64,000 nucleotides of DNA. Source: Thermoleophilaceae bacterium. GTDB lineage: Bacteria > Actinomycetota > Thermoleophilia > Solirubrobacterales > Thermoleophilaceae. The DNA lies in the NCBI GenBank assembly GCA_040901445.1, contig JBBDYQ010000010.1, positions 1-64,000 of the forward strand, read 5' to 3'. A model generated the notes under the pieces. That model had not been told where the DNA came from. It was given only the letters and a program-made list of their open reading frames with translations, and made no database searches. Positions 16,537 to 23,500 of the stretch are shown here, piece by piece. The position numbers and the translations under genes are program-made. The stretch's first letter is position 1, and each line of letters opens with the position of its first letter.

Positions 16537-17832
16537 TCAGCCGCTGCCGAGCGACGTCTGGCCCAGGCTCGTGAAAGCGGCCGGGTCGACGTCGAGGGCG
16601 GCCAGCGCGAGCTCCGCGAACAGGCCGGCCCGCATCACGTCACTGGGCCCGTAGGGCTCACCGCTGCGGCGGTCGAGCAGCGACATCACGCCCAGCGGCG
16701 TCTCGCCTCGCCGCAGGGGAACCACGAGCATGGTGTGGGGCACGTAGCCCGTGCCCTTGGCGATCTGGGCGGCGAAGCGGGGGTCGGTGCGGCAGTCGGC
16801 CACCGCCACCCCGTCGCCGGTTTCCACGACCGAGCCGGCGATGCCCACGCCGGCCGGCAGGCGCACGCCCACGATCTCCTTCGCACCCGAGCCCCAGGAA
16901 GCCTGGTACACCAGCTCGCGCGTGGTTCGGTCCACCAGCGCGATCGAGGCCGCCGCAGCCTCGAAGATGCCGGCCGCCGTGCGCACCACCGACTCGATGA
17001 GGGTGCGCGGCGCGTCCGGGGTGGGCACCGAGAGCACGAGCGAGGCCCCGCGCGAGTCCTTGAGCGGCGCGCCGAGCGCGCGGGCGAAGGAGGACGCCGA
17101 GGCCACACGCCGCTCGGGCACCATCTCGAGCCCGGCCCGGATGGTCTCCTCGAGCTCCGGAGTCACGCCGGGCACGGTCTCGGCCAGCGGGAGGTCGTCC
17201 GCGTACACGGGCGGCTTGCCGGCGAGCAGGGCCCAGAGCGTGGCCGCCAGGCCGAAGACGTCGCTGCGCGGGGAGAGCGCGCCGCCCGCGAACACCTCGG
17301 GGGCCATGTAGCGCGGCGTGCCGATGCCCACGGTGCCCGACTCCTCCTCGCCGATCTCGCGCGCCACGCCGAAGTCCACGAGCACCACGCCGTCGGTCCC
17401 GACGATCAGGTTCTGCGGCTTGACGTCGCGGTGCACGATCTGCTGCTCGTGCACGTACTGGAGCGCCTCGCAGGACTGGAGTGTGTACTCGATGGCCTCG
17501 CGGGGCCCGATGCCCGGGGATCCCTGCTGCTTGAGCAGCTCCCCCAGGTCCACGCCCTTCACGAGGTCCATCACGATGAAGTAGGCGCCCGTGGGGTCCT
17601 GGAAGTGGTCGATCACCTTCACCACGCGCGGGTGCTCGAGCTGGGTGAGCAGGCGCGCCTCGATCTCGAAGCGGGTGGCATGGCGGGGGTCGAGCAGCCG
17701 CTTGACCGCCACCTCCTCGCCCGTGACGCCGTTGCGGGCCCGGTACACGGCGCCCATGGCGCCCTTGGACAGGGGCGCGGTGATCTCGTAGCGTCCGAGC
17801 CGATGCCCCTCCGGGAGGGTCGCGTCCGTCAC
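16537..17832 (-). CDS. Ser/Thr protein kinase with C-terminal GAF domain
   Basis: 431 aa cytoplasmic Hanks-type kinase (residues about 13-265) followed by a GAF sensor domain (about 275-420). Kinase motifs: VAVKRLL lysine, HRDVKPQN catalytic loop, DFG magnesium loop and GTPRYMAPE. The glycine-rich loop reads LSKGAMGAVY, so the first Gly of GxGxxG is Ser. The GAF part (AAASIALVDRTTRELVYQAS, PHTMLVVPLRRGETPLGVMS) likely binds a small molecule and tunes activity. There is no transmembrane segment. GTG start preceded by TACCCT at 6 bases; divergent from the DUF3307 gene. Confidence 0.88.
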   Translation of the reverse strand: MTDATLPEGHRLGRYEITAPLSKGAMGAVYRARNGVTGEEVAVKRLLDPRHATRFEIEARLLTQLEHPRVVKVIDHFQDPTGAYFIVMDLVKGVDLGELLKQQGSPGIGPREAIEYTLQSCEALQYVHEQQIVHRDVKPQNLIVGTDGVVLVDFGVAREIGEEESGTVGIGTPRYMAPEVFAGGALSPRSDVFGLAATLWALLAGKPPVYADDLPLAETVPGVTPELEETIRAGLEMVPERRVASASSFARALGAPLKDSRGASLVLSVPTPDAPRTLIESVVRTAAGIFEAAAASIALVDRTTRELVYQASWGSGAKEIVGVRLPAGVGIAGSVVETGDGVAVADCRTDPRFAAQIAKGTGYVPHTMLVVPLRRGETPLGVMSLLDRRSGEPYGPSDVMRAGLFAELALAALDVDPAAFTSLGQTSLGSG

Positions 17833-19990: not shown

Positions 19991-20653
19991 ATGGCTTCGG
20001 GCGACGCGGTGCGCCGGCGGCCCCGGGGGGAGCGGCGCCGCCACGAGATCCTGCTTGCCGCGCTGCGGATAGTCCGCGAGCGCGGCACCGCCGCGGTCAC
20101 CCACCGAGCCGTGGCCGAGGTGGCGGACGTGCCCCCGGCCACCACCACGTACTACTTCGACTCCATCGACGAGCTGCTCGAGGAGGCGCTCAAGCTGTTC
20201 GTGGACGAGGAGGTGGAGCGACTCGGGCACCTCGCGGCCAGCCTGCGCTCGGCCACCGTCAGCCCGCACACGATCAGCGAGCTGTTCGCCGAGGAGCTGC
20301 TGCGCGGGAACGAGTCGGGGGACAACGTGGCCCAGTTCGAGCTCTACCTGGAGGCGTCCCGGCGCCCGCGGCTGCACGAGGCCGCCGCCGCCTGCCTGCG
20401 GGCCTACGCCGAGGCGGCCGAGGCGGCCCTGGCCGCCGCCGGCGCAGCGCGGGCCTCGGAGGGCGCCCGCACGTTCGTCGCGCTCGTCGACGGCTTGGCG
20501 CTGGCGCGCACGGCCGCTCCCGACTCCCACCACGACGCCGACGAGCTGGCCCGCGCCATGCGCGACCTCTTCATCGGGTTCGCGATGGACGAGGACGAGC
20601 GCGCAGCCTGGGAGCGGCGCATGGGCGAGCCCACCGCTCAGGGCGAGAGATAG
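19991..20653 (+). CDS. TetR-family transcriptional regulator
   Basis: 220 aa. N-terminal TetR helix-turn-helix: RRHEILLAALRIVRERGTAAVTHRAVAEVADVP followed by TTTYYFDSIDELLEEALKLF. The C-terminal ligand-binding half is not similar enough to a characterised member to predict the ligand. Has its own leaderless promoter. Its 3' end overlaps the convergent TetR gene by 16 bases. Confidence 0.9.
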   Translation: MASGDAVRRRPRGERRRHEILLAALRIVRERGTAAVTHRAVAEVADVPPATTTYYFDSIDELLEEALKLFVDEEVERLGHLAASLRSATVSPHTISELFAEELLRGNESGDNVAQFELYLEASRRPRLHEAAAACLRAYAEAAEAALAAAGAARASEGARTFVALVDGLALARTAAPDSHHDADELARAMRDLFIGFAMDEDERAAWERRMGEPTAQGER

Positions 20654-21201
20654 CCGTCGAGCATCACGCGGAACTCCTCGAGCAGGGCGTCCCGCTCGGA
20701 GGCCAGCGCGCGGGTGGCGAACACCACCCCGCGTAGCGACAGCTCGACAACGCGGGCCAGCAGCAGCGGATCGGCGTCGCGGATCGTGCCGTCCTCGATG
20801 CCGGCGGCCAGCAGAGCCTCGAAGGCCTCGAGCGCCCGCCGCTGGAACTCCCCCACGCGCGTGGTCACGTACGGCAGCAGCAGCTCGGGGTCCACGTCCA
20901 CGATCCGCTCGAACAGTGGGTGGGCCGCCAGGTCCGACGCCGTGCGCACCGCCGCCTCCACCGCACGCTCACGCCCGCCGGGGAGGCCCGCCACCGCCTC
21001 GGTCGCGCCATCCACCACGGACTGGAACTCGCGCGTCATGAGCGCCTGGATCAGCGTGGGCACGTCCGGATAGCGCCGGTAGAGGGTCATCCGGCTCACG
21101 CCGGCGCGCCGGGCCACGTCCGTGGCGGTCATGCGCCGCACCCCCACCGCCATGACCGCGTCGCGGGCGGCGTCGAGGATGGCGTCGGGGTCGGTGGCCA
21201 T
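20638..21201 (-). CDS. TetR-family transcriptional regulator
   Basis: 187 aa. The helix-turn-helix is clear: ILDAARDAVMAVGVRRMTATDVARRAGVSRMTLYRRYPDV-like, with the canonical TLYRRYPD turn. I start at ATG 21201 (MATDPDAIL), 13 bases after the stop of the membrane protein gene; the frame is open upstream but encodes only Arg-rich shadow sequence. It is the last gene of a four-gene minus-strand group (CBS, 68-aa protein, membrane protein, TetR). Confidence 0.88.
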   Translation of the reverse strand: MATDPDAILDAARDAVMAVGVRRMTATDVARRAGVSRMTLYRRYPDVPTLIQALMTREFQSVVDGATEAVAGLPGGRERAVEAAVRTASDLAAHPLFERIVDVDPELLLPYVTTRVGEFQRRALEAFEALLAAGIEDGTIRDADPLLLARVVELSLRGVVFATRALASERDALLEEFRVMLDGYLSP

Positions 21202-21214
21202 GCTGGCCGGACCC

Positions 21215-22087
21215 TTAGCGCTTGTTCCGCTTCTTGCGCTTGCGCGAGCGCGGGCGCGGCACGTCCGGGTCCGCGCTCTCGGGCGCGTCACCGCTGCCGC
21301 GTCCGTTCTCGGAGCGGGCGTCCGCCGACTGCTCCTCGCGGTTTCGCGCCTGCTCGGCGGCCGAGGGCCAGGGCACGGCCTCGCCCGCCTCCCAGGCGGG
21401 CCCGCGCCCGCCCGGCCAGCGGCCGAAGAAGAGCGCCGCGAGCGCGCCGAGCCAGAACAGCTGGACGATCTGCGGCCCGCCGGTCAGCGGAAGCACGTAC
21501 AGCACGCCCACGATGATCCCGATGACCCCGAGAAAGCGACTGACCAATCCGGCGCGCATCGCGTTGAGTGCGATGAGGACCACGCCCAACCCCAAGGCCA
21601 GGTTGCCGGCGAGGCCGATCTGCTGGAGCACCGGCAGAGCGCTGTCGTCGATGGCGTCCTCTGCGCGGTCCTCACGCGTCATCCCGGGGACTGACGTGCC
21701 GTCCACGAAGTCCGAGGCAGCGTCCGTGAAGGCCACCGCTGTCGCCACGGCGATGACCGCGGCGAGCGTCGCGCCGAACACGAGCCCGATGATGGCCACG
21801 ACCCGGAGCTGCTCCCGGCGAAATCGGGTTGCGCGGTAGAGGTACCCGAGCAGCGGGATCAAGAGCAGCAGGCTGGCGCCCGTCAGAGCGCTTGCCGCGA
21901 TGAAGCTCCCCGATTCTCGCTCCACCACGACGAGCGTGCCGGCATCGCCGTCCGGCCGGTCGGACAGCGCCGACGCGAGGAGCACGTTGCCGGCGATCCC
22001 GAGCAGCATCGTCGCGACGGCGGCGGCCGCCGCGGGCCGTCCGGCCCGCGCCTCCCAGTCGAGCTGCTCGGCGCGCGTCTGCGTCAC
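21215..22087 (-). CDS. multi-pass membrane protein, unknown function
   Basis: 290 aa. About six hydrophobic segments (VATMLLGIAGNVLLASAL; LTGASLLLLIPLLGYLY; VVAIIGLVFGATLAAVIAVA; LAGNLALGLGVVLIALNAM; FLGVIGIIVGVLYVLPLTG; FWLGALAALFFG) precede an acidic then very basic cytoplasmic tail ending RSRKRKKRNKR. The pattern recalls DUF4386-type proteins, but I cannot assign a function. GTG start immediately after the TAA of the preceding small gene. Confidence 0.75.
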   Translation of the reverse strand: MTQTRAEQLDWEARAGRPAAAAAVATMLLGIAGNVLLASALSDRPDGDAGTLVVVERESGSFIAASALTGASLLLLIPLLGYLYRATRFRREQLRVVAIIGLVFGATLAAVIAVATAVAFTDAASDFVDGTSVPGMTREDRAEDAIDDSALPVLQQIGLAGNLALGLGVVLIALNAMRAGLVSRFLGVIGIIVGVLYVLPLTGGPQIVQLFWLGALAALFFGRWPGGRGPAWEAGEAVPWPSAAEQARNREEQSADARSENGRGSGDAPESADPDVPRPRSRKRKKRNKR

Positions 22088-22297: not shown

Positions 22298-22744
22298 TCA
22301 GCCTCCGCGCTGGTGGAAGTAGAACTCGGGCAGCGCGGCACGCGCCACCTCCGCGGTGATCTGCTGCGCGGCGTTGAGGTCGCCCGCACGCACGGCCACG
22401 TCGTCGATCGTGACGATGCCGGCCAGCTCCTCGCCGCGGAGCACCGGCAGGCGACGGATGCGGTGCTGGACCATCAGCGCGGCCGCCTCCTCGAGGTCCA
22501 TCTCCTCACGCCCCGAGACCAGCGGCCGCGTGGCGTAGGAACCGGCATGCTCGCCCGCGTCAACCCCGTCGGCCACCGCGGTGAGGGTGACGTCGCGGTC
22601 GGTGAGCACGCCCACCGGCAGCCCCTGCTCGCACAGGACCACGGAGCCCACGTTGCGGTCGCGCATCAACTCTGCGACCTCGCGCAGCGTGGCACCGACG
22701 TCTGCCGTGACGACGGGCGCGGTCATGACGTCGGCGATCCGCAT
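22298..22744 (-). CDS. CBS-domain pair protein
   Basis: 148 aa consisting of two CBS domains: ADVMTAPVVTADVGATLREV with GVLTDRDVTL, and TRPLVSGREEMDLEEAAALM with GIVTIDDVAV. Such stand-alone Bateman modules bind adenosine nucleotides and regulate partners. First gene of the minus-strand group; its ATG lies 8 bases from a -10 hexamer that is shared with the divergent beta-lactamase-fold gene. Confidence 0.88.
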   Translation of the reverse strand: MRIADVMTAPVVTADVGATLREVAELMRDRNVGSVVLCEQGLPVGVLTDRDVTLTAVADGVDAGEHAGSYATRPLVSGREEMDLEEAAALMVQHRIRRLPVLRGEELAGIVTIDDVAVRAGDLNAAQQITAEVARAALPEFYFHQRGG

Positions 22745-22752
22745 GAAGACGG

Positions 22753-22762
22753 ACGATATCGT
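22753..22762. promoter_or_regulatory. bidirectional promoter: palindromic -10 ACGATATCGT
   Basis: The 10-base palindrome reads TATCGT on both strands, the two hexamers sharing the central TA. The plus-strand copy ends 6 bases before the ATG at 22769, the minus-strand copy 8 bases before the ATG at 22744. Confidence 0.65.
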
Positions 22763-22768
22763 CCGGGC

Positions 22769-23500
22769 ATGGCACGCATCGCGGCGGGCGTGCACCGCCT
22801 CGGCACCCGGCTGGTCAACTGGTACCTCGTCGAGGAGGGGGACCGGCTCACGATCGTCGACGCCGGGATGCCGCGCTACCGCGGCCAGCTCGACACCGCG
22901 CTCGCCGAGCTGGGCCGCTCGCTCTCGGACGTGGAGGCAATCGTGCTCACCCACCCCCACCCCGATCACGTGGGCTTCGCGGAGGGCGTGCGCGCCGAGG
23001 CCGGCGTGCCCGTGCTCGTGCACGAGGCCGACGCCGAGATGGCCCGCACCGCCAAGGCCCCGCTCGGAGAACGCGGCCTGCGGCCCTACCTGGTGAAGCC
23101 GGCGTTCTGGGGGCTGATCGGCCATATGGCGACCCAGGGCATGCGCCCGCGCAAGATCGCCGAGGTCGCGACCTTCGCCGACGGCGAGGCGCTCGACGTG
23201 CCGGGCCGCCCCCGCGTCGTGCACGCCCCCGGCCACTCGGCCGGCTGCTGCGCGTTCCACCTGGCCGACCGCGGCGTCCTGCTCACCGGCGACGTGCTCT
23301 GCTCCCGCAACCCCATGACCGGGCGCGACGGGCCGCAGATCATGCCGGGCTCGTTCACCGCGGACGTCGCGCAGGCGATGGACTCCCTGGGCCGCATCGA
23401 AGGGCTCGACGCGGGCGTGCTGGGCTTCGGCCACGGCGACCCGTGGACTGACGGCCCCGCCTCGGCGGTGGCGCGGGCCCGCGAGCTGGGCCCGAGCTGA
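22769..23500 (+). CDS. metallo-beta-lactamase-fold hydrolase
   Basis: 243 aa. The metal motif HPHPDHVGF (HxHxDH) is near residue 69; later ligands are HAPGHSAGCC and the Asp in LLTGDVLCS, with a final His in GFGHGDPW. The overall pattern is that of the glyoxalase II-like/MBL hydrolases acting on thioesters or lactones. The substrate is unknown. Leaderless start. Confidence 0.87.
   Translation: MARIAAGVHRLGTRLVNWYLVEEGDRLTIVDAGMPRYRGQLDTALAELGRSLSDVEAIVLTHPHPDHVGFAEGVRAEAGVPVLVHEADAEMARTAKAPLGERGLRPYLVKPAFWGLIGHMATQGMRPRKIAEVATFADGEALDVPGRPRVVHAPGHSAGCCAFHLADRGVLLTGDVLCSRNPMTGRDGPQIMPGSFTADVAQAMDSLGRIEGLDAGVLGFGHGDPWTDGPASAVARARELGPS

Follow-up and report, generated by a model that had tools for sequence, protein, structure and literature searches.

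Bidirectional promoters in which a single -10 element is shared by both directions are known in bacteria and archaea (Warman, Grainger and colleagues; PMC12825309, PMC10268837). Common start-to-start distances at these promoters are 18, 10, and 23 bp with small variations, and opposing RNA polymerases are unable to bind together (PMC12825309). For five tested promoters of E. coli the basal activity was too low for mutual hindrance, and interference appeared once one direction was strongly activated (PMC12825309). Already known as well are the leaderless TANNNT genes of Actinobacteria, which make up 19% of the genes on average and whose start codon is preceded by TANNNT at a distance of about 12 bp (Zheng et al. 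2011, PMC3160421).

The locus presented here is located within the window, i.e., the whole stretch of 64,000 nucleotides that was analysed, and separates a CBS-domain protein gene from a divergent gene for a metallo-beta-lactamase-fold hydrolase (Table 1). As in the described shared -10 promoters, there is a pseudo-symmetric -10 that can be read on both strands, the nominal distance is 23 bp, and mutual exclusion of the polymerases is expected. It differs from them in that both directions lead into apparently leaderless protein genes, whereby the -10 would fix both start codons and the promoter would fill the 24-bp gap, and in that the element is a perfect palindrome whose promoter activity is predicted. 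As in the actinobacterial leaderless genes, TANNNT is found at the same distance from the start codon, and about a fifth of the genes are of this kind; unlike in that survey, which treated genes singly and left divergent pairs unmentioned (PMC3160421), one TANNNT core would here serve two genes. From the observed sequence geometry, genome-wide enrichment, and conservation, we read the palindrome as very probably a bidirectional core promoter, from which mRNAs that are leaderless or nearly so would be transcribed in both directions.

Table 1. Coordinates of the two divergent genes and of the elements located between them.
Feature	Position	Strand	Remarks
CBS-domain protein gene, 148 aa, ATG at 22744	22298..22744	-	CBS pair PF00571, E=2.2e-24
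Metallo-beta-lactamase-fold hydrolase gene, 243 aa, ATG at 22769	22769..23500	+	Lactamase_B PF00753, E=2.3e-30
Intergenic region of 24 bp, GAAGACGGACGATATCGTCCGGGC, entire space separating the two start codons	22745..22768	.	
Perfect 16-bp palindrome CGGACGATATCGTCCG, holds both -10 hexamers	22750..22765	.	
Predicted -10 hexamer TATCGT of the metallo-beta-lactamase-fold gene	22757..22762	+	ATG 6 nt on; at the genome-wide peak of TANNNT-to-start spacing
Predicted -10 hexamer TATCGT of the CBS-domain gene	22753..22758	-	ATG 8 nt on; TANNNT in 30/30 orthologues

Start codons and palindrome in the divergent gap

A chaining gene caller that was trained on codon usage selected exactly ATG 22744 and ATG 22769 as start codons. 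For the lactamase-fold gene, the aligned parts of the homologues begin at this start or within a few residues of it, and the CBS orthologues have a GTG or ATG start at the same residue. The sequence ACGATATCGT at positions 22753-22762 forms the core of the longer perfect palindrome CGGACGATATCGTCCG, and the central T22757-A22758 is common to the TATCGT hexamers of the + and the - strand. An earlier note on this DNA had described a symmetric palindrome that supplies TATCGT to each strand with a shared TA, and genes that start 6-8 bases off. The palindrome was even understated there, since it comprises 16 bp and not 10, and the distances to the two ATGs agree with those in Table 1. The “34-bp region” that was given for the whole arrangement has to be corrected to a gap of 24 bp, or 30 bp if both ATGs are counted.

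ACGATATCGT occurs once in the window, compared to 0.02 occurrences expected from dinucleotide shuffles, and once in 864 kb of the genome. Because the window contains ten perfect palindromes of at least 16 bp, palindrome length alone is weak evidence, and an argument for rarity from length alone was dropped. TA-centred palindromes of 16 bp are rare, with two cases in 864 kb. ACGATATCGT matches the pattern ANNNTANNNT, in which -10 elements of opposite strands overlap in a recognised bidirectional-promoter register with a nominal distance of 23 bp. Among the 47 such shared-TA sites in 864 kb, CGGACGATATCGTCCG is the only one that forms a perfect 16-bp palindrome, and its symmetry, which extends 3 bp past each -10 hexamer, exceeds what a promoter needs.

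It could therefore be that the symmetry originates from protein binding and not from two -10s, and that the palindrome serves chiefly as an operator, to which a dimeric repressor, e.g., of the TetR family, binds and thereby blocks both promoters. Two TetR-family genes at a distance of 1.6-2.8 kb (19991-20653 on the + strand and 20638-21201 on the - strand) would fit such a reading. However, the 16-mer is unique in the genome and has no copy with one mismatch and five copies with two mismatches, so that neither the TetR genes nor any other place in the genome offers a second operator site. A TetR-like regulon would be expected to have additional sites, either at other promoters or at the gene of the regulator itself. 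None was found genome-wide at 0-1 mismatches, and a regulon operator as the main reading was rejected for this lack of near copies. It also speaks against an operator that the CBS orthologues retain the -10 and not the palindrome, and that palindromes of at least 16 bp are as numerous in the window as stated above. Overall, we consider it unlikely that the palindrome is mainly an operator; a repressor site that is overlaid on the promoter is possible. As an aside, the two TetR-family genes are convergent, and their 3' ends overlap by 16 bp.

TANNNT spacing and shared-TA sites in the genome

The genome statistics cover 864 kb of the 3.54-Mb genome. In this part TANNNT is scarce and strongly depleted, with 802 copies on both strands together. 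TANNNT motifs that end 6, 7, 8, 9, and 10 bases ahead of an ATG were counted 37, 48, 36, 29, and 31 times, respectively (both strands), compared to a background of about 7 per position outside this peak, and a similar peak is present in front of GTG at 6-8 bases. Roughly a quarter of all TANNNT copies are located at leaderless spacing from an ATG or GTG. As the motif is depleted overall and so many copies are found at this spacing, TANNNT on its own can serve to predict promoters in this genome. Among the 711 called genes, 140 (about 20%) have a TANNNT 6-9 nt upstream of the start. At the 22744/22769 locus this spacing is seen on both strands, with 6 nt on the + strand and 8 nt on the - strand, whereby the latter value is on the long side and none of the other shared-TA orthologues of the CBS gene exceeds 8.

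Of the 94 sides of the 47 ANNNTANNNT occurrences, 40 have an ATG or GTG 6-10 bases off, and at nine sites there is a start codon 6-10 nt away on both sides, compared to about 0.9 expected if start-codon frequency alone (about 13.8% per side) is taken into account. Among called divergent pairs whose starts are separated by 20-32 bp, 7 of 14 contain the pattern, and when other intergenic DNA is divided into 26-bp tiles, 6 of 2954 do so. Leaderless promoters whose divergent neighbour is at most 32 bp away contain the A needed to complete the hexamer of the other strand in 12 of 23 cases, and the remaining leaderless promoters do so in 11 of 131 (Fisher P=3e-6; the two members of each pair enter the test separately, so that the effective number is smaller). 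The shared-TA arrangement is not unique to 22744/22769, since several pairs of this kind exist in the genome, four of which are located in the window (starts at 17832/17862, 22744/22769, 30670/30696, and 44855/44886). Thus, the element at 22753-22762 is one of a class. The pair 17832/17862 consists of a protein kinase and a DUF3307 gene, and the pair 30670/30696 of a histidine phosphatase and an RpiB-like gene. A further divergent pair in the window, 27103/27121, has 17 bp between its starts and contains TAAGGTA, which corresponds to the 18-bp register.

The CBS gene and its divergent partners

The relatives of this genome place it among Thermoleophilaceae-like genomes. A TANNNT motif is located 6-10 bases upstream of the CBS start codon in all 30 orthologous loci (window included), which come from three families of the order Solirubrobacterales. 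The shared-TA form is present at 10 of these loci, all ten of which have an ATG or GTG on the opposite strand at a distance of 6-7 bases, compared to one divergent start codon at that distance among the 20 loci without the shared-TA form; these counts are not phylogenetically independent, since the ten shared-TA cases come from about four lineages. At four further CBS loci the hexamers overlap as TANNNTA (nominal distance of 18 bp), and the divergent start codon is 7-8 bases away.

The divergent partners of the CBS gene fall into several unrelated families. In the window the partner is the lactamase-fold gene, at locus L096 a saccharopine-dehydrogenase-like gene, and at L097 a gene with a glycosyl-hydrolase-31 N-terminal match near the cut-off. 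Five genomes (L173, L178, L180, L181, and L182) share a partner family that is related to the DUF4386 gene of the window (42% over 186 residues). In the window this gene is located downstream of the CBS gene (21215-22087, - strand), whereas its relatives are divergent upstream partners, so that this neighbour has changed its position and orientation. Another four genomes (L164, L175, L176, and L177) have a cysteine-containing protein of about 210 aa without a Pfam match as partner and share the sequence TAGCGTA in the 18-bp register, while the partner at L167 is a doubtful frame of 82 aa. L095 also has a saccharopine-dehydrogenase-like partner, which starts as in L096 and whose frame breaks after 23 codons, either by an assembly error or because the gene is decayed. 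The exact pair of the window was not conserved among the lactamase-fold homologues examined, all of which come from outside the genus, as none of them adjoins a CBS gene.

From this distribution it might be deduced that leaderless promoters in this GC-rich order can take up new divergent genes owing to the symmetry inherent in TANNNT. The -10 of the conserved CBS gene would then have been converted into a shared bidirectional promoter on several independent occasions, for partners that are unrelated to one another and in the 18-bp as well as the 23-bp register, and both start codons would have been fixed on each occasion. We regard this scenario as evenly balanced between right and wrong.

Since the motif is conserved on the CBS side across the order, it might also be that only this -10 is functional, whereas the other one is a by-product of the palindrome and the lactamase-fold gene has its promoter elsewhere. 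Most of the lactamase-fold homologues have no TANNNT at the corresponding place, which is in agreement with such a one-sided use. However, two of the homologues (L003 and L002) do have their own TANNNT 7-8 nt ahead of a start, the + strand hexamer of the window is located at the preferred spacing of 6 from its ATG, an alternative + strand promoter would fall within the CBS coding region, and shared-TA sites are associated with divergent start codons. A single functional -10 is therefore quite unlikely in our view. That the palindrome arose by chance and has no promoter function, with both genes being transcribed from starts within the adjacent genes and translated from mRNAs that have leaders, is highly improbable: perfect palindromes of this length are common in the GC-rich window, but the rare TANNNT is at the preferred spacing on both sides, and three families of the order retain the element on the CBS side.

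Proposed two-way transcription and its meaning

In the bidirectional core promoter that we favour, the housekeeping sigma factor would read TANNNT on either strand of ACGATATCGT, with the central TA being part of both hexamers. With transcription assumed to begin, as is usual, 7 bases past the last base of the -10, the nominal starts are predicted at 22769, i.e., at the A of the ATG, and at 22746, two bases before the other ATG, which gives a distance of 23 bp. In one orientation, RNA polymerase would produce the metallo-beta-lactamase-fold mRNA from or next to the A of the ATG (22769), and in the other orientation the mRNA of the CBS operon at its ATG or at most two bases from it (22744-22746). 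Both mRNAs would have no leader or almost none, and their translation would not depend on a Shine-Dalgarno sequence. The earlier note had proposed two opposed leaderless promoters, for which the genome-wide spacing, the gene-call statistics, and the 30 orthologous promoters provide good support. One reservation concerns the minus-strand mRNA, which may carry a leader of 1-2 nt, because the - strand spacing of 8 places the nominal start two bases upstream of the ATG. A classic promoter with a -35 plus a -10 was also considered, and nothing of this kind was found, as there is no -35-like hexamer on either strand. In genomes of this type, the -35 is often degenerate or absent.

A polymerase that is bound in one orientation would exclude the opposing one, so that both genes would draw on a single binding site. 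The claim that the two promoters cannot be used at the same time would accordingly hold for one DNA copy at one moment, and it does not imply that a cell expresses only one of the two genes at a time (PMC12825309). Since basal firing was too low for interference at the promoters studied in E. coli (PMC12825309), the exclusion is not a switch between the genes. Whether a competition between the two genes becomes measurable would depend on how strongly each direction fires.

The literature search, which was judged by titles and abstracts and had the founding 2021 paper on bidirectional promoters outside its range, returned no description of one element that sets both start codons or of its recurrence at one gene with changing partners. 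Should both starts be confirmed, the locus would represent about the smallest possible divergent promoter, with 24 bp between the start codons, one two-base step that is common to both -10s, and a coupling of promoter and translation start in either direction. As there would be no leader and the gap has no room for other elements, it would constitute a clean test case for polymerase competition. Furthermore, the series of orthologues, in which the same gene has a shared or an unshared -10 and different partners, would allow the origin of bidirectional promoters to be traced.
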